Assembly (NCBI GenBank): GCA_002842515.1 | Contig: PHDC01000001.1 | Location: forward strand, 868,001 to 932,000 | DNA: 64,000 bases | From: Bacteroidetes bacterium HGW-Bacteroidetes-5 | GTDB taxonomy: Bacteria > Bacteroidota > Bacteroidia > Bacteroidales > UBA932 | Direction of reading: 5' to 3' | Part shown: one piece after another, positions 1 to 8,596 of the stretch | Position numbering within the stretch: the stretch's first letter is position 1 | Layout: each line of letters opens with the position of its first letter | The notes under the pieces: model-generated | What the model was told of the DNA's origin: nothing | The model's database searches: none | The model's input: the letters and a program-made list of their open reading frames with translations, nothing else | Made by a program: the position numbers and the translations under genes

Positions 1-32
1 AGTCTGTCAACACTCAGGAGTTCTCATCATCT

Positions 33-1328
33 ATGCAGGAGTTGAATCAAAATGACTATTTCGGGTCACTCGAGAGAGCTCTTCGCACAATAACTTACTG
101 TATTGACGATATAGATACCACCTCGGTATCTCTCCCTTTAGTCTCCAATAACAGCGATTACCATAACTTTCTTCGGGAGTACTCAACCAACGAAATTCCT
201 GCAGGAGCCCCAGTTTTTGAAGTTTTTGACACCTCCCGATACTACTCTCAAATATCTAAGTTCCACGAACTTAATAGAATGAAAGATACTCTCTCAAGGC
301 ACACATCCAAATTTGAAGATGTCCTCAAAGGGCTTATGCTCACTCTTGCTCAATCTGTTCAGACAATCTCTTCACTTAAGATTGCATCTGCAGATAAAAT
401 AGTATTTGACTCAAACAGAGTTCTTTTCAAGATACTCAAATCTCCATACAACCACTACTCCCCTGTTTTAGAGCAGGCAGAGATTGAGAGAATACGCAAT
501 GAGAGTTTCAATTACGGAGAGTCAATACAGGAGTATGTCCCTTTTCAGCTTAAGAGCAGCTCCAGGGTGAGGTATAATATGCTTTCGGACAGCTGGGTTG
601 CAGAGGATGGAAGCGCCACCAATATGCCGTTTGGAATTCACCAGATTCACGAAGAGATTGTCGCCCCAATTGTACAGAGCCTTATGGAGGAGACACGGGT
701 AGAGCGTCTAAAAATCTACAACCATATTAAAGATCAAAAGATAAGCTACCTTAACAAATGGCATCAGGATACAGAAGATTTTTATGGACGAAACAGGGCG
801 GAGAGTGCAGATCTTGTTAATTTAATGCGGAACACTTTAAGCGAGTATGTTGCTGCCTACAACACTATGATCTCAATGCAAAAAACAGAGGAGAGTATGA
901 AGCAGTCAAACGGATCGCTGGACTCCTCACTTGTAGAATCTGTCTCAAGCAGTGTAGAGATTCTTGCTGCTTTTGAGAAGCAGTCACAAGAGTTCCAGAG
1001 TGTTCAGACAGAGTTCGAGAACTATATGGAGCAGCTTAAGGAGGATATCGTTAAAAAAGCAGACAGTTTTGAGCACATAGATTACTACGAAGCTCTGCTT
1101 AGGGACGGCAACTCTAAAGAAACAGCTGTTGCAGCCAAAGAGATCTATGAAATGGACGAAAGAAGAAGACCTCTCATTGCCGTAAATCCTCTTTTTGCAA
1201 AGATGTCCGAGATGCCTCCTGAGCCAAGCGTAGACAGTATAACATTTGAATTGGTATCGATGAGTCTGCCGGATATGGCAAAAGATGCCATTGCAGAACT
1301 TGAACACGAACTCCAGGAGGAGCTTTAA
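33..1328 (+). CDS. Uncharacterised helical cytoplasmic protein, possibly 5'-truncated
   Basis: I do not recognise a family. The 431-residue product has no signal peptide or membrane segment. Its C-terminal half (about residues 225-360) is rich in Glu, Lys, Gln and Ser and looks largely alpha-helical or coiled-coil; the tail is acidic. The ATG at 33 is the first in the window, but the frame has no stop back to the left edge, so the true start may lie outside and the gene may be partial. It is the first of four same-strand genes with 5-23 bp gaps, which suggests one operon with the paralogous pair and the bactofilin-like gene. A scaffold or cytoskeletal role is inferred only from that context. 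Confidence 0.7.
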   Translation: MQELNQNDYFGSLERALRTITYCIDDIDTTSVSLPLVSNNSDYHNFLREYSTNEIPAGAPVFEVFDTSRYYSQISKFHELNRMKDTLSRHTSKFEDVLKGLMLTLAQSVQTISSLKIASADKIVFDSNRVLFKILKSPYNHYSPVLEQAEIERIRNESFNYGESIQEYVPFQLKSSSRVRYNMLSDSWVAEDGSATNMPFGIHQIHEEIVAPIVQSLMEETRVERLKIYNHIKDQKISYLNKWHQDTEDFYGRNRAESADLVNLMRNTLSEYVAAYNTMISMQKTEESMKQSNGSLDSSLVESVSSSVEILAAFEKQSQEFQSVQTEFENYMEQLKEDIVKKADSFEHIDYYEALLRDGNSKETAVAAKEIYEMDERRRPLIAVNPLFAKMSEMPPEPSVDSITFELVSMSLPDMAKDAIAELEHELQEEL

Positions 1329-1351
1329 CTTAGAAATCCCAACTTGATACT

Positions 1352-2269
1352 ATGTCAACCTTTAATTATCATATAGATACGCAGCCACTGGCAGAGGAGA
1401 TGGGTAATGTCTCTAAGAATGTTAACCTCACAACCGGTGCTGTAGTTGCTATGCAGGCAGCTGTAGTTGCTGCCGAAGAGAGAGCCTCAGACCTTGTTTG
1501 TGATAATGTAAACAGAGGTTTTTACTCTCTCATCCGTTCTCAGATCTCTCAAAAGCTTGCAAAGTACAAAAGCGAATATGAGTCTAAAAGGATGCTGCTT
1601 TCACACCAGAAAAGGGCTTTGGTGAGCATCAAGACAATTATGGAGAGAGATTACAATATGATCTCAAAACGATACACCAAACTCTTCAACGGATTGAATT
1701 CAAACCTCCAGACTCGGGTTTTTGAGGTTGATAAGCCAATGATTGACTTCTCCTACAGAGATATCGGAAGAATGACCAACAGGTCTAAGTATCTTACTGC
1801 CGTAGTCCCTCTTACTCAATTAGAGTCGGTTGCTTCAAGCCAAAAAATTGTTGCTTCAAACATTAAACAGAGAGGTTTAAATGCTATAAACTCCATAAAG
1901 GCCTTTATTCTGGAGATGCATAACCAGGAGAGTCTTGCCAAGAAGATTCTGGTTGATGACATCGTTACAAGAAACAGTGAAGCATATCTTCCTGTTGCTC
2001 TTTGCGAATTTGAGAACGACTCCTTAGGTAACAGGGTCACCGAGTTTTTTGCTCCCGGAGAGTCATTGCATCAGGCCGCAGTAACATCTATCTCAAATGC
2101 ACTTCACTCAGAGTTTCACAATACACCCCAAAATCAAGATCTCTATAGCAGGCAGGAGGTGAGAAATGAATTTCTGAAACTGATATCCGACTCAAAAAAA
2201 CCTGCAAGAGTGAGGGATGTCGCAATTGAACTGTTTAACTCCGGACTACCTCAACGAGAAAAATCTTGA
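1352..2269 (+). CDS. Uncharacterised protein, paralogue of the next gene
   Basis: Product of 305 residues with no signal peptide or membrane helix, probably cytoplasmic and mostly helical. It aligns along its length with the next gene. Shared blocks include an N-terminal N-x-H-x-x-T-x-P motif, a TxAVVAxx block, a GF[YF]SxIRS[QE]ISQ block, a [MQ]E[RK]D[YF]NxIS[KS]RYxK block and a C-terminal RVR block. The two are therefore diverged tandem duplicates. The family is unknown to me. It starts 23 bp after the upstream gene, and the next gene starts 4 bp after its stop, so translational coupling is likely. Confidence 0.8.
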   Translation: MSTFNYHIDTQPLAEEMGNVSKNVNLTTGAVVAMQAAVVAAEERASDLVCDNVNRGFYSLIRSQISQKLAKYKSEYESKRMLLSHQKRALVSIKTIMERDYNMISKRYTKLFNGLNSNLQTRVFEVDKPMIDFSYRDIGRMTNRSKYLTAVVPLTQLESVASSQKIVASNIKQRGLNAINSIKAFILEMHNQESLAKKILVDDIVTRNSEAYLPVALCEFENDSLGNRVTEFFAPGESLHQAAVTSISNALHSEFHNTPQNQDLYSRQEVRNEFLKLISDSKKPARVRDVAIELFNSGLPQREKS

Positions 2270-2273
2270 TGAT

Positions 2274-3311
2274 ATGGGTTTTTTAAAGAGTTATAAAGAG
2301 ACAGTCAGCAAAACGGTATCTGTACCGTATGAGGCCTCAAATAAAGGGGGTACAAAGTCGGTTACCGTAGATATCCCTGTTGAGATAAATCTGCACTTCA
2401 ACACAGACCCATTCTCCGAAAGTGTAAAGAGTTGTGAAAACGATATTACACTGCTAACTGCAGCTGTGGTTGCCACAGAGCAGGTGGAGGTCCGTACAAA
2501 GGAGGAGAACTCTCTTCGGGTTGCAGACTCTGTGGTAAATGGTTTTTTCAGCTATATCCGTTCCGAGATAAGCCAACAGGTAACAGAGCTGGTTCAGGTG
2601 GCAGAGGGTAAACAGATTATTTTAAAAGAGCTTATAAAACGATCGACATCTGTTAAGAGTCAGATGGAGAAGGATTTTAACAGAATCTCTTCCCGTTACA
2701 TAAAAGTCTTCCAGGATCTCAATAAGGAGTTATCTTATCGCGTCTATGAACTCAATAAATATATCTTTAATTTTGAATCACAGACAAACAACCACAAGGT
2801 AAGAGCCATTAACAGCGATCTGATAAATGTGATTGCAGTCTTTGGAGCAGAGTGTTCAAGCCTGATATCCAAAATATCTTCTTCTGTTACAAAAAAGAGA
2901 GCAATCGACACTATCACAAAGGCCAAAAATTTCATTCTGACCCAAAAGCGGCTCTACAACGAAATTCAAAAGGGTATAGTTAACGAAGAGATATCCGGAG
3001 ATGTTGTTGTTCCCGTTTGCTTTATTGAGAGCTACAGCAACCCAAACAGCTACGAACGAAAGATATACTCTCAGGAAGATTTAGCACAAAAAGAGGGGAG
3101 CGAGGTATGGGACCATATTATTATGCAGATCTCATCCGAAGATATTAAGTGGGAGGCAATTTCACAAAAAGATAAAAGTAACATAGCCCTCTATTTTGAG
3201 TACGAACTGGAGAAGAGGGTAAAACAGGGTGACCCGCACTCATTCAGGGTCAGAGAGACAATCAGGAAAATCGCAAACTTAGATTCAATCTGCGTAATGA
3301 GCAATCGGTAA
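2274..3311 (+). CDS. Uncharacterised protein, tandem paralogue of the upstream gene
   Basis: Product of 345 residues from the ATG at 2274. An in-frame ATG at 2217 would overlap the upstream gene by 53 bp and adds residues with no counterpart in the paralogue, so I prefer 2274. There is no signal peptide. Residues from about 40 on align with the upstream gene, including the N-x-H-x-x-T-x-P, IRSEISQ and NRISSRY blocks. It differs by a longer N-terminus (about 35 residues) and extra central sequence. The protein is helical and charged. The function is unknown; in-operon duplication suggests a heteromeric pair. Confidence 0.78.
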   Translation: MGFLKSYKETVSKTVSVPYEASNKGGTKSVTVDIPVEINLHFNTDPFSESVKSCENDITLLTAAVVATEQVEVRTKEENSLRVADSVVNGFFSYIRSEISQQVTELVQVAEGKQIILKELIKRSTSVKSQMEKDFNRISSRYIKVFQDLNKELSYRVYELNKYIFNFESQTNNHKVRAINSDLINVIAVFGAECSSLISKISSSVTKKRAIDTITKAKNFILTQKRLYNEIQKGIVNEEISGDVVVPVCFIESYSNPNSYERKIYSQEDLAQKEGSEVWDHIIMQISSEDIKWEAISQKDKSNIALYFEYELEKRVKQGDPHSFRVRETIRKIANLDSICVMSNR

Positions 3312-3323
3312 TAATTTTACAAA

Positions 3324-4298
3324 ATGAAAGATTTAAAAGAGATAAGAATCAGTGAAGCTCATCTTCAACTAAAGAATAATCTTGTAAGGAGCTCAATCCT
3401 GCCCGAGAAATCATCTGAGCTTGGGCGAAATATAACTGTGCTGGGAGACAGCATAATAGAGGGCGCCGTTTATGCATATAAACTTGAGGTTAATAATGGT
3501 GATGCCCACTTTATGGGGGCTCTTTTCACCCAGCTGGAGCTCTTTATTAATAGCGAAGCAACCGGTGAGATTATCTTTAATAAAAGCGTAGGCTCCGCAA
3601 ATTCGGTTGTCTCCCGCGCACTAAACTGTAAACTCTCCTTCTATTCGGATATCAATGCAAAGAGGGTCACACTATGTAACGCTTTTGTTGCGGGTAGTAT
3701 CTATGCAGATGAGATTATTCTTGAGAACTCTATCGTTATCGGTGGTCTCTTCTCTACTCAAAGTCTTGAGATTACAAACTCGCTGGTGGGTACATTCAAC
3801 AGCCCCTCCGTAAAGCTGGAAGATACTGTATACCTGCTGCTGCCAAGTGCCTTCTCAATCAACCCGGTTATGATAGCTCCCGGCTCAAAGTTATACAATC
3901 TCACTCTTGCAGATCTTGGATCACTCTATAAGGGTGTCGGTCAGGCTGCCGGCTCCGGCAAAATTGAGATGGATATTATCTCAGATGAGGTTAAGACAAC
4001 TCTGACCAGAGATGATATTCAAAAGACAATCCGAAGTTATACGGTTGTAGGTAAAGTTCTTGCAGCAGACCTAATTGACACCGATAAGTTCAATAACCAC
4101 TTCTTACTCACAGCAGCAAGTCTGGGTGCCCAGCTGCTCAAAAGTTACGACCTGGGAGTGAACGAGAAGGGAGAGGTGGCAGAGATTACAATGGAGAAGC
4201 TTCGTATATTCTTCTTTGACATTCTCTACGGAAAGACCGAGATTCAGGACATAGAGGGGACATTTAACCTCTCTGAGATAACCTCAAAATTTAAATAG
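3324..4298 (+). CDS. Bactofilin-like beta-helix protein
   Basis: Product of 324 residues without a signal peptide. Residues about 35-175 carry repeating short beta-rungs of the type VxGDSIIEGxVYAxxLEV, with regular Gly and alternating hydrophobic residues. This pattern is typical of polymer-forming bactofilin domains, which build membrane-associated filaments. The C-terminal half (about 200-324) is not repetitive and looks mixed alpha/beta. Normal bactofilins are shorter (about 120-200 residues), so this would be an extended variant. It closes the four-gene cluster 13 bp after the paralogue. The assignment rests on pattern only and a different right-handed beta-helix is possible. Confidence 0.6.
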   Translation: MKDLKEIRISEAHLQLKNNLVRSSILPEKSSELGRNITVLGDSIIEGAVYAYKLEVNNGDAHFMGALFTQLELFINSEATGEIIFNKSVGSANSVVSRALNCKLSFYSDINAKRVTLCNAFVAGSIYADEIILENSIVIGGLFSTQSLEITNSLVGTFNSPSVKLEDTVYLLLPSAFSINPVMIAPGSKLYNLTLADLGSLYKGVGQAAGSGKIEMDIISDEVKTTLTRDDIQKTIRSYTVVGKVLAADLIDTDKFNNHFLLTAASLGAQLLKSYDLGVNEKGEVAEITMEKLRIFFFDILYGKTEIQDIEGTFNLSEITSKFK

Positions 4299-4306
4299 AA
4301 AACTAT

Positions 4307-5020
4307 ATGAAAACAATTATCTCTTTTTTGATTATGTTGATGTTTACATCTGCCTCAGCTCAGGACAAACAGGTTTTCACAAAGATAACCGAAGGGGATC
4401 AGCTTATTTATCTGCTTGCATCACCTTCACTTAAGGGAGATATCTCTCTTGAAGAGACCATTAACAGCAGAAGGTCAAGACGCTCTTTTGCACCGGACGG
4501 TGTTACCGATGTTCACCTCTCTCAAATATTGTGGAGTGCATACGGTGTTACCAAGCCAAGTACCAACCCACAAAGGAGCGGTCTCAGGAGTGCACCATCG
4601 GCCGGAGCCAGATATCCGCTGGAGATCTACGCCGTAGTAGGAAACGTTCCCGGTATAGAACCAGGAGTGTACAAATATGACGCAATTCAACATAGAATCA
4701 TACGGGTAATTGCCGCAGATGTAAGAAAGGAGCTCACATCTGCAGCGTTAAACCAGAAGATGGTGGCAGATGCCCCTTTCAGCGTCTTTTACAGTGCAAT
4801 ATACAGCAGAATTACAGATAGATATGGAGACAGGGGTCGCGATAGATATGTCTGTATGGATCTCGGGCACTCTGCCCAAAATGTCTATCTCCAGGCAGAG
4901 GCACTCAAATTGGGAACTTGTGCAATTGGGGCTTTCAATGACGAGATGGTAAAAGCAGTTATGCTCCTTCCGGAAAATGAGGTTCCGCTTTACATAATGC
5001 CAATCGGAAAAGTTAAATAA
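4307..5020 (+). CDS. Exported SagB/ThcOx-type nitroreductase-fold dehydrogenase
   Basis: Product of 237 residues with a clear Sec signal peptide ending in ASAQ (about residues 1-19). The mature part has the SagB-type FMN oxidoreductase layout: RRSRRSF near the start, SAGARYPLEIY, GVYKY, and GHSAQNVYLQAEALKLGTC followed by GAF. These match the FMN-binding and dimer elements of the nitroreductase superfamily. SagB/McbC enzymes oxidise azolines to azoles in TOMM peptides, but many standalone members have unknown substrates. It begins 8 bp after the bactofilin-like gene and ends before a terminator, so it probably shares that operon. Periplasmic location is inferred from the signal peptide. Confidence 0.85.
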   Translation: MKTIISFLIMLMFTSASAQDKQVFTKITEGDQLIYLLASPSLKGDISLEETINSRRSRRSFAPDGVTDVHLSQILWSAYGVTKPSTNPQRSGLRSAPSAGARYPLEIYAVVGNVPGIEPGVYKYDAIQHRIIRVIAADVRKELTSAALNQKMVADAPFSVFYSAIYSRITDRYGDRGRDRYVCMDLGHSAQNVYLQAEALKLGTCAIGAFNDEMVKAVMLLPENEVPLYIMPIGKVK

Positions 5021-5177: not shown

Positions 5178-6857
5178 ATGAAATTAAAATTTTTATTGCT
5201 CCCTATTCTGGCTCTTCTCTCCCAGCAGCTATCTGCACAGGATAAGATGCTCGATTTTCTAAAAAGTGAGTTAAAGAGTCAGATGACTACACTCCAAAAG
5301 GGTGAGTACCCTCCGTTTTATATGAACTACAGAGTTCTGGACAACAATACCAGGATTATTCGTTCATCTATGGGTGCCACTGTAAACACAGAAGAGGATA
5401 AACATATTCTGTTTGTCCCTCAAATCAGGATAGGATCACCTGAGTTTGACAATTTTCACGAATCGCAAAACGGCTCTCCTACAAACAGGTTTGCAGGCCC
5501 GCCCACAATCTTCCTTCCGGAGGATATTCAAAACGGGATGAGTGCGTTACAAGAGATTATCAAAGAGGAGGTAAACACACGCTACCGTTTTGCCATAACA
5601 AGCTACGAGAGAGCGACTGCAAAAAAGGGTGTGAAGGTAGAGAATGCAGATAAATCTCCCGACTTCACCAACGCTAAGGCCGAAAAATATTTTGAACCGG
5701 CAATAAAGGGAGATAAGGCTAACCTGGACAAAGAGGCGTGGCAGAAACAACTGAATAAATACAGTGCCCTTTTTATTGACAATAAAGATGTTATAAGCGC
5801 AAATGTAACTCTTACATACAGAATCTGGAGAAAATACTTTGTCTCTACAGAGGGTAGTGAGATTGCAGAGAACAGGACATACACCATTCTTAGTGTAAGA
5901 GCCGCTACTATGGCAGATGACGGTATGGAGCTTCCGCTTAACAAAAGCTATTTTGCATACTTCCCGGACGAACTGCCATCTCCGTCACAAATTGAGAAAG
6001 ATCTTAAAGAGATCTCCCTCAAACTATCTGAGCTTAAGGTTGCCCCATTGGTTCAGCCCTACACAGGACCTGCACTTCTGTCGGGATCTGCAAGCGGAGT
6101 CTTTTTCCACGAAATCTTCGGTCACAGAATCGAGGGGCAGAAGATGAAGAGTGAGAGTGACGGACAGACCTTTAAGAATATGGTTGGGGAGAGTGTTCTC
6201 CCGGCTTCTTTAAGTGTATATTGCGACCCTACAATGAAAAAGTTTCGCGGCAGCTCTCTAAACGGCTACTATATTTTTGATGAGCAAGGGGTGAGAGGCG
6301 AGAGAGTTGAGGTGGTTAAAGATGGTATTCTTAAAAACTTCCTAATGACCCGTACAGGACTTGACGGTTTCCCAAAATCCAACGGTCACTCCAGGGCAGA
6401 GTTTGAATATGACCCAACTTCCCGCCAGTCAAACCTCATCGTTGAGACAAACTCATATAAAACAGACGCCGAATTAAGGAAGATTCTTATTGAGGAGGCT
6501 AAAAAACAGGGTAAGGAGTATGGTTACTTCTTCAAAACAGTTACCGGAGGCTTCACACAAACCGGAAGAGCAGGCGCTAACTCATTTAATGTAACCCCTC
6601 TGGAGGTTTACAGAATATATGTAGACGGAAGGAAAGACGAACTGGTAAGAGGAGTAGATATGATTGGTACACCGCTCTCTATGTTCTCCAATATTGAGTA
6701 TGCAGGCGGAGAGTTTGAGATATTTACCGGCACCTGCGGGGCATCATCCGGCAATGTACCGGTTACTGCAATATCTCCAACTATTTTTGTAAACAAGGTT
6801 GAGCTTCAAAAAAAGGCTAAACCTACAGTTACTCCGGCACTTCTGCCTCGTCCCTAA
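5178..6857 (+). CDS. Exported TldD-like metallopeptidase (catalytic subunit)
   Basis: Product of 559 residues with a Sec signal peptide ending in LSAQ (about 1-21). The TldD/PmbA family signature is present: the HExxxH zinc motif HEIFGH at residues 311-316, and a C-terminal GTCGASSG segment with Cys520, matching the Cys ligand region of TldD. In enterobacteria TldD pairs with TldE/PmbA in the cytoplasm to degrade small peptides and mature microcin B17. This copy is predicted to be exported. The next gene, 29 bp downstream, encodes a family member without the zinc motif, so the two probably form a TldD/TldE-like heterodimer. Substrate unknown. Confidence 0.85.
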   Translation: MKLKFLLLPILALLSQQLSAQDKMLDFLKSELKSQMTTLQKGEYPPFYMNYRVLDNNTRIIRSSMGATVNTEEDKHILFVPQIRIGSPEFDNFHESQNGSPTNRFAGPPTIFLPEDIQNGMSALQEIIKEEVNTRYRFAITSYERATAKKGVKVENADKSPDFTNAKAEKYFEPAIKGDKANLDKEAWQKQLNKYSALFIDNKDVISANVTLTYRIWRKYFVSTEGSEIAENRTYTILSVRAATMADDGMELPLNKSYFAYFPDELPSPSQIEKDLKEISLKLSELKVAPLVQPYTGPALLSGSASGVFFHEIFGHRIEGQKMKSESDGQTFKNMVGESVLPASLSVYCDPTMKKFRGSSLNGYYIFDEQGVRGERVEVVKDGILKNFLMTRTGLDGFPKSNGHSRAEFEYDPTSRQSNLIVETNSYKTDAELRKILIEEAKKQGKEYGYFFKTVTGGFTQTGRAGANSFNVTPLEVYRIYVDGRKDELVRGVDMIGTPLSMFSNIEYAGGEFEIFTGTCGASSGNVPVTAISPTIFVNKVELQKKAKPTVTPALLPRP

Positions 6858-6886: not shown

Positions 6887-8596
6887 ATGAAACATATATA
6901 TATAATAATGAGGTTCTTTCTGGTTGCATCTATTGCTCAGATAATCTCTTTAGCTACAGTAAGTGCCCAGACAGACCAAACTACATTGTTCAGGGCAATG
7001 AAAGATGAGATGAACAGAAGCAAAAACGAGCTTATTCTTCCAAACTCACCTGCACCCTACTTTATCTCCTACACTGTCGCAGAGACATCATACATCACAG
7101 TCTCCGGCTCTTTGGGAACAATACTCAGCTCAAAAGAGAGTCCGTCGGAGAGAGTTCACTCTGTAAACCTTTTAGTGGGAGATAATAAACTCTCGAGCGA
7201 CTATGCCTACACCGGGAACGGTATCTTATCTGCATCCCTCTCATCCTCGGAAGACAATTATGATCAACTCCGGAGAAACTTCTGGCAAACATCAGACCTG
7301 GCATACAAATTCGCAGTTGAGGTCTATAACTCTAAAATTAACAGTTTAAAGAGTGCAAACCTAACCCCGGAAGAGAAGGCTTTGCCGGATATGCTTCCGC
7401 TTGCAAGAGTTGAGCAGATGAGCAATGCTCCTGCAAAATTCAACCTCAGTAAAAAATCTTACGAAGAGCTTACCCGCAAACTATCTGCAGAATTTTCCAA
7501 ATACCCTCAAGTTTTTAATTCCAGAGTTGAGGCAGACGGAATCATAACCAACTACTACTACCTCACAACAGAGGGGACAAAGGTTGTAGAACCAGCCGGT
7601 TATGTTGCCGTTACATTTTCCGGCAGAGTAAGAAATGCAAAGGGTCAGGTTATCTCAGACCGACACACCATCTACTCCCGTACATTTGAAACACTGCCTT
7701 CGGAGAAGGAGCTTATTGCCTCCGTTAACGAGTTCGCTTCAAGAATGAAGGGGCTCACAGAGGCATCAGAGATGGAGGAGTACTACCTGGGACCTGTTCT
7801 CTTCGAAAACGAAGCTGCAGCAACTATTTTATCAAATAACCTTGTATCTCCAGCCGGCATTATCTCAATCAGAAAGCCTGTACAGGTAATGGCATCAGTG
7901 GGAAGAGTAGAAAATGTTGCCGCAAGGCGAGATGTTAAAGCTCTTGAAGATAGAATAAATAAGAAAGTGATTGACAGCAGAATATCTGTTATAAACAGAA
8001 CAGATTTAGATAATTTCAACGGCAATCCGCTGCTGGGAATCTACACTATGGACGCTCAGGGTGTTGCTCCGGTAAAAGAGGTTTCACTCATAGAGAACGG
8101 AATCCTCAAAAATCTGCTAAGCACAAGAACTCCTACAAGAAAGACAAACGGATCGACAGGAAGTTTGAGGTACGGGGTAAGGCCAAGGGCAATCCCTATT
8201 GAGACGGCTCCGGGTACGCTTTTCATCTCTGCAAACCAAGGATCTACACCTGCAGATCTCAAAAAAGAGCTTATAAAAGCAGCTATAGAGGAGGGTCTTG
8301 ACTACGCCTATATTGTAAGAAAGATTGCAGATCAAACGGATCAATATATCTACAGAGTATCTGTAAAAGATGGTTCGGAATCTTTGGTTATCGGCACAGA
8401 GATAACTCCTGTACCCCTAAACAAGCTAAAGAGAGTTCTGGGTGTGAGCAGAGAGCAGATGGTCTCCGGCTACCTTTATCAGGGTGCCGTTCCAACCTCA
8501 GTTGTATATCCAAACGGTATTTTAATTGAAGATATTGAGATCAATAAAAAACCTATCAACGTATTGAAGAACTCTCCGCTTATCTCCAATAAGTAA
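6887..8596 (+). CDS. Exported TldE/PmbA-like partner protein, no HExxxH
   Basis: Product of 569 residues with a Sec signal peptide ending in VSAQ; a second ATG at 6908 would also retain a signal. The size and layout match the preceding TldD-like protein, including the C-terminal barrel with IYTMDAQGV and an NGILKNLLSTRT segment (the upstream copy has DGILKNFLMTRTG). The position corresponding to the zinc helix reads as FENEAAATI with no HExxxH, and the C-terminal Cys is absent. It is therefore probably the non-catalytic subunit, as TldE is to TldD. The pair is likely co-transcribed. Confidence 0.8.
   Translation: MKHIYIIMRFFLVASIAQIISLATVSAQTDQTTLFRAMKDEMNRSKNELILPNSPAPYFISYTVAETSYITVSGSLGTILSSKESPSERVHSVNLLVGDNKLSSDYAYTGNGILSASLSSSEDNYDQLRRNFWQTSDLAYKFAVEVYNSKINSLKSANLTPEEKALPDMLPLARVEQMSNAPAKFNLSKKSYEELTRKLSAEFSKYPQVFNSRVEADGIITNYYYLTTEGTKVVEPAGYVAVTFSGRVRNAKGQVISDRHTIYSRTFETLPSEKELIASVNEFASRMKGLTEASEMEEYYLGPVLFENEAAATILSNNLVSPAGIISIRKPVQVMASVGRVENVAARRDVKALEDRINKKVIDSRISVINRTDLDNFNGNPLLGIYTMDAQGVAPVKEVSLIENGILKNLLSTRTPTRKTNGSTGSLRYGVRPRAIPIETAPGTLFISANQGSTPADLKKELIKAAIEEGLDYAYIVRKIADQTDQYIYRVSVKDGSESLVIGTEITPVPLNKLKRVLGVSREQMVSGYLYQGAVPTSVVYPNGILIEDIEINKKPINVLKNSPLISNK

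Follow-up and report, generated by a model that had tools for sequence, protein, structure and literature searches.

The window studied here is a stretch of 64,000 nucleotides from Bacteroidetes bacterium HGW-Bacteroidetes-5 (G000:C1:868001-932000; genome of 2.8 Mb in five contigs, 92.9% complete), and it begins with four genes, termed A, B, C and D. Our analysis suggests, at roughly even chances, that A-B-C-D is the core of a patchy, apparently horizontally spread operon that would build a membrane-anchored scaffold with a bactofilin-like polymer. The four open reading frames (ORFs) lie on the forward strand with gaps of 23, 4 and 12 bp, which bears out the original prediction of four consecutive same-strand genes 4-23 bp apart. 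The first gene had been placed at position 33; the frame is open at the window edge, and the true ATG was located at G000:C1:867466, giving a full A of 620 residues, with relatives beginning there too (MKGKIF). Scans of A (window part), B, C and D returned nothing above the curated cut-offs of Pfam or NCBIfam and no PHROGs or PADLOC match below E 0.001, in keeping with the earlier statement that no family could be named for the genes other than the last.

Conserved gene order and upstream partners

Relatives were retrieved from a species-genome collection with two peptide patterns; at least 87 were found and 80 were kept (loci L004-L083), a set that leans to sequences keeping the two patterns. 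Bacteroidota or groups of it were the label of 78 of the 80, the other two being labelled Ignavibacteriae (L012) and Candidatus Cloacimonetes (L081, 41%). With the window's own locus included, 70 of 81 loci had A-B-C-D in the same order and on a single strand, and in the remaining 11 the sequence ends within 1.8 kb after the A match. The operon layout thus goes beyond chance, and across Bacteroidota the gene order is kept far outside this genome, so that the proposal does not fall for want of a conserved neighbourhood. At E <= 1e-3, 1,647 homologue clusters were obtained for D, 948 for B and 2,533 for A, counts to which helical stretches may contribute false homologues near that threshold. The best 120 were listed for each of the three; for A, the best 120 of 2,533 showed 64-98% identity over 98-100% of the query.

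Recurrent neighbours were sought by clustering 1,121 mechanically called ORFs from the loci and the window flanks. Beyond A-D, only two were recovered, termed S and T, both directly upstream of A; the next cluster was found in 5 loci. S (about 420 residues) matched Band_7_1, an SPFH family (PF13421), at 3.8e-36 and 5.7e-33 in the two proteins scanned and carries repeated C-terminal zinc ribbons, with no transmembrane-type segment by hydropathy in the one scanned. T (about 236 residues) had no Pfam family above cut-off in two proteins scanned and several strongly hydrophobic segments in three (hydropathy). S and T stood together just upstream of A in 63 of the 81 loci, and T alone in two, L067 (cut) and L078; in L078, T occurs without a detectable S despite more than 6 kb of upstream sequence. 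Neither gene was seen in 16 loci, seven of them with too little upstream sequence, leaving nine informative loci without S/T (the window, L004, L005, L006, L014, L040, L063, L072 and L073). Being absent from the window's locus, S and T were invisible to the original prediction.

The four proteins

Hydropathy analysis located a membrane-type hydrophobic segment at about residues 56-79 of the window's A, encoded outside the window. Of the four A proteins scanned, three (those of the window, L011 and L046) have it near 56-79, and the fourth, from L081, at 67-96. Because the A N-terminus carries this segment, the operon is not purely soluble, and the cytoplasmic scaffold first proposed is not supported: besides the segment in A, SPFH and multi-pass membrane proteins are encoded upstream in 63 of 81 loci. 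The companion claim that signal peptides are lacking stands for B, C and D, in which no segment reached the hydropathy threshold for membrane or signal segments (no dedicated predictor was run).

The part of A within the window is charged and looks mostly helical. Among relatives, the roughly 610 core residues are extended by a tail that ranges from 0 to more than 200 residues in length and is often acidic. Some tails carry zinc ribbons, by CxxC count (L008, L009 and L012) or by Pfam. The L7/L12 C-terminal domain PF00542 was detected on A at E 7.3e-14 in one of 46 alignment rows scanned, most of which hold the core without a tail, and is precomputed for the homologues P0261, P0267, P0278 and P0341. 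By eye, the tails of L057, L059, L061, L062, L065 and L081 resemble this ribosomal domain, here on a predicted membrane protein with no further relation to it. The window's A has no tail domain, neither zinc ribbons nor L7/L12. A recurring acidic tail, seen in L036, L043 and other loci, ends in a short motif like LTREDLEAMSDEELMEILDYLELEY...FDREESIATIL, and is possibly a small helical adaptor. A strict link of the tail to the presence of S/T was rejected on exceptions both ways: L015, L046, L056, L070, L079 and L080 have S and T with an A tail of 0-10 residues, and L040, L063 and L073 have a tail without S/T, the A gene of L073 being without its N-terminal part. A relationship between A and B was likewise dropped, as sequence comparison shows none.

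The structure model of D (pLDDT 86.8, pTM 0.87) is a long beta-helix with strands through residues 13-178, and its blocks of residues 11-180 have a mean pLDDT of 89-98. Right-handed helices superpose on it at about 3-4 Å and left-handed ones at 11-14 Å, from which we infer a right-handed beta-helix in the model. The Pfam Bactofilin family (PF04519) matched 47 of the 55 proteins in the D alignment at E <= 0.05 (best 8.5e-6), some D relatives bear the JGI label 'cytoskeletal protein CcmA (bactofilin family)', and the sole solved structure that the D profile matched at E 1 or better was bactofilin A (E 0.53). The bactofilin-like beta-rungs first read in the last gene thus find a counterpart in a predicted beta-helical core and in the family matches of most relatives. 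D is termed bactofilin-like, and not a member of the family, because the window's D itself has no PF04519 match. Compared with bactofilins (PF04519, CcmA/BacA), with which it shares the predicted core, D differs in a longer beta-helix (about 166 residues against 98 Pfam profile positions), in an additional C-terminal alpha/beta region of about 136 residues and in its N-terminus. The latter reads MKDLKEIRIS (consensus of the 55-row alignment MKELKEIRFN) and has no MFSKKKK-like peptide; such a membrane-targeting peptide is described in passages of PMC12448750 as common, not universal, among bactofilins. In L082, a Tannerellaceae metagenome-assembled genome (MAG), the D homologue (L082:11277-12245) has one in-frame stop and the B match covers only residues 1-179, defects that reflect either decay or sequencing error.

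Sequence comparison makes B and C paralogues, with 26% identity and an hhalign probability of 100 (E 2e-50), as the original description of a paralogous helical pair had it. Long helices are predicted for B at residues 11-147 and 160-200, with a small alpha/beta end. C probably starts at 2274, not at 2217 as in the mechanical ORF list, and its best PADLOC match (E 0.0011, 15.9 bits) covers a stretch of 49 residues. Coordinates of all features are compiled below.

Coordinates of the A-B-C-D genes and of the predicted regions of D within the window
Feature	Position	Strand	Basis or remark
Gene A, 3' part (residues 180-620 of 620)	1..1328	+	Start 535 bp before the window
Gene B, 305 residues	1352..2269	+	ORF, structure prediction; known family not found
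Gene C, 345 residues, paralogue of B with N-terminal extension	2274..3311	+	ORF, sequence comparison
Gene D, 324 residues, bactofilin-like	3324..4298	+	ORF, homologues, structure prediction
Predicted beta-helix of D, putative polymerising core, residues about 13-178	3360..3857	+	Structure model
Additional alpha/beta region at the D C-terminus, about residues 189-324, modelled with less confidence	3888..4295	+	Structure model

Patchy distribution and genomic setting

In an even sample of 198 genomes across the phylum, A was present only in the window's own genome (0 of the 197 others). It was found in 12 of 99 relatives, namely the genome itself, 8 of 24 of its genus, 1 of 34 of its family and 2 of 40 of its order; some genus members are incomplete (73-99%), and absences there are soft. 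An A tree of 80 rows, from a quick search, placed the window in a set of eight from its own genus (the window's genome, G200, G205, G206, G209, G213, G214 and G218; SH-aLRT 100). The A of G207, the complete genome 'Bacteroidales bacterium CF' (L033), falls elsewhere in the tree, although it belongs to the same genus. Constraining the window's genus to one clade cost 200.5 log-likelihood units (p-AU 5e-43), and constraining seven Flavobacteriia rows cost 483 units (p-AU 4e-37), both groups being set by taxonomy but after the tree was seen. Rows from Labilibaculum, Chitinophaga and Flavobacteriales shared one branch (SH-aLRT 100); several rows are MAGs, but the records of Labilibaculum, Capnocytophaga and CF carry no such label. 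Simple vertical descent is rejected by the A tree.

The flanks also vary within the genus. Compared with the window's locus, L006 shares both sides, L005 the downstream side, and L014 and L072 neither. From the patchy presence, the tree conflict and these differing flanks, the A-B-C-D module appears to be accessory and to have moved between lineages. Composition gives no mark of foreign origin, since the operon part has a G+C content of 41.8%, less than one standard deviation away from that of stretches of equal size (42.6 +/- 1.3%).

Six members of the window's tree set are without S/T and two have too little sequence, and G207 has both genes. PF13421 was not found in the window's genome, with the control positive in 4 of 14 named genomes including Bacillus subtilis, nor was T, in a search without a control. 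Full-length S (E below 1e-230) was present in three of the 99 relatives (G207, G266 and G282), all carrying A; the other nine A-carrying relatives showed no S, with zinc-ribbon stretches only in two, and more distant SPFH matches (E 1e-62 to 1e-33) turned up in nine genomes with no A. As the far Cloacimonetes locus has both genes, loss of S and T in the window's lineage is the simpler reading on an unrooted tree.

A phage, plasmid or viral origin was considered and set aside, as A relatives were found neither among IMG/VR viral contigs with the two peptide patterns nor by tblastn of the L011 homologue against 72,556 records of plasmids and 50,697 of phages. The same searches bear on whether the operon belongs to a known machine such as a phage tail, a contractile injection system, type 9 secretion or gliding. 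What could speak for such a machine is the resemblance of A to GldM, at 19.3 bits for NCBIfam TIGR03517 (window part of A; cut-off 180) and 19.2 bits for Pfam GldM (cut-off 25). The matches span 66-78 residues only, no PHROG match fell below E 0.037, and no gene of such a machine is a neighbour in more than five loci. Membership is therefore highly improbable, and the check for a phage tail, gliding or secretion apparatus in NCBIfam, Pfam, PHROGs and the viral and plasmid searches turned up no convincing match.

Eight bp after D comes a nitroreductase-like gene (window positions 4307-5020) whose product, judged by eye, begins like a signal peptide; the L005 relative matches PF00881 at 2.8e-29, and the gene also occurs in some members of the genus for which no A was found. 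It is followed by two tandem proteins (5178-6857 and 6887-8596), presumably TldD/PmbA-like, whose N-termini both look by eye like signal peptides, in contrast to the cytoplasmic TldD/PmbA of E. coli. The idea that A-D form a unit with these downstream genes was abandoned when loci were compared. L014, L072 and L033 have no nitroreductase within the available sequence, and L100 and L102 hold the nitroreductase and a TldD-like gene without A-D nearby, in genomes (G211 and G198) in which no A was found.

A patchy, apparently horizontally spread module, with no neighbour family beyond the six genes in more than five loci, would also suit a mobile anti-phage or conflict module, in which S, T and A act as membrane sensors that trigger an abortive or trapping response through B/C/D. 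Some neighbours within 10 kb do match PADLOC models such as MkoA, ThsB and GajB. To control for this, ORFs near the operon (n=106, at most one per side, 110-900 residues) were compared with 105 ORFs lying over 3 kb from it, namely 106 drawn at random from 143 candidates with one dropped because it also belonged to the near set. At E <= 1e-5, 36 PADLOC families were matched in the near set against 123 in the far set, as family counts on mechanical ORFs in which one protein can match many models. Both sets contain some defence-type genes, and the idea of a defence island was set aside, as the near-far control, which included no baseline of unlinked genes, shows no enrichment next to the operon. 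No effector domain above cut-off was seen in A (window part), B, C or D, and no A relative on viral contigs or in phage or plasmid records. The anti-phage explanation is accordingly rather improbable.

A candidate membrane-anchored scaffold

Among known systems, the nearest one that has been worked out is pspA-ydjGHI of B. subtilis, which offers a likeness to the loci of the relatives. Passages of PMC8581546 report that recruitment of PspA to the membrane by YdjI depends on YdjG and YdjH, and that loss of YdjG/YdjH gives curved cells and swollen poles under alkaline stress. Like YdjI, the S of the relatives is an SPFH protein (PF13421) with zinc ribbons, encoded beside membrane proteins, and B/C are plausible as a helical oligomer partner like PspA. 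The window's genome differs in that no PspA, S or T was found; PF04012 gave no match there, with the control positive in 9 of 14 named genomes. Since no PspA was found and B and C are not visibly PspA-like, the claim is that the module works like PspA-YdjGHI, not that it is a member of that system. The literature seen in part on pspA-ydjGHI names no bactofilin-like partner, unlike D here. Parts of a PSP survey (PMC11237479) and an ESCRT survey (PMC10936438) describe zinc-ribbon SPFH/band-7 proteins encoded next to PspA or ESCRT genes, and the word 'bactofilin' is absent from the main texts of both. With SPFH/NfeD and flotillin operons, in which SPFH partners are NfeD-type according to passages of PMC2636767, the relatives have in common the pairing of an SPFH protein with a small membrane protein (T); they differ in that two T proteins scanned had no NfeD match and one S scanned had no transmembrane-type segment.

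In the proposed scaffold, D would polymerise through its beta-helix, and A would be anchored in the inner membrane and extend its large C-terminal part into the cytoplasm, a topology suggested by hydropathy. B and C may form long rods linking A to D, or coat the membrane. In loci that have them, S and T would recruit the complex and gather it into clusters, in the way that PspA is recruited by YdjI together with YdjG/YdjH. In the window's lineage the scaffold would be a reduced one, with A as its only anchor. The likely job would be envelope maintenance or membrane-domain organisation under stress.

Several observations weigh against this scaffold. The window's D matched no Pfam family at E <= 1. 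An attempt to identify D as a bactofilin by hhalign of its alignment with one classical bactofilin, that of the same genome, was not significant (probability 0.3%), and the very presence of this classical protein (L084:1450-1833, reverse strand; 82.6 bits to PF04519) means that the genome already has a bactofilin. Foldseek gave D no PDB match at E <= 0.001 (best E 0.24), the top matches being mostly other beta-helix proteins, with no bactofilin chain among the matches listed. The structure model of B is poor (pTM 0.27), Foldseek found no PDB match for it at E <= 0.001, and no fold match of weight was seen. Assignment of B or C to ESCRT-III/PspA was not supported, as a relation was undetectable by comparison (hhalign with one PspA sequence, that of E. 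coli, gave probabilities of 0.2% and 0.9%). Finally, no S was detected in the window's lineage at E <= 0.001, and this absence weighs on the YdjI analogy because the analogy rests on S.

The mislocalised wall synthesis linked in parts of PMC8581546 to the absence of YdjG/YdjH would also fit a cell-shape or division scaffold, with D as a bactofilin-like morphogen and A-C positioning cell-wall enzymes, with no link to stress. This is unlikely: the module was not found in the 197 other phylum genomes, nor in 16 of 25 of the genus (some incomplete), and no further neighbour family occurs in more than five loci. Missing from most sampled genomes, the module is not a general shape determinant.

Extending the membrane-anchored scaffold further, one may picture a new mobile membrane cytoskeleton, with a bactofilin-like filament under an SPFH patch, anchors from families without known relatives, interchangeable C-terminal adaptors of A (zinc ribbons, L7/L12, acidic tails) choosing cargo, and a stripped version lacking SPFH in the window's genus; as a whole, this picture is possible though doubtful. 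Open-licence PMC literature yielded no paper joining bactofilin with SPFH, flotillin or anti-phage functions and, by title or abstract start among the matches listed, no description of the A-D operon.

The loci bring together an SPFH membrane scaffold and a bactofilin-like polymer in one operon with unnamed families, conserved across the phylum and present in few genomes. They would provide a compact setting in which to study possible cooperation between a membrane-domain protein and a cytoskeletal polymer, and the one genus that keeps the core without the SPFH half offers a natural experiment.

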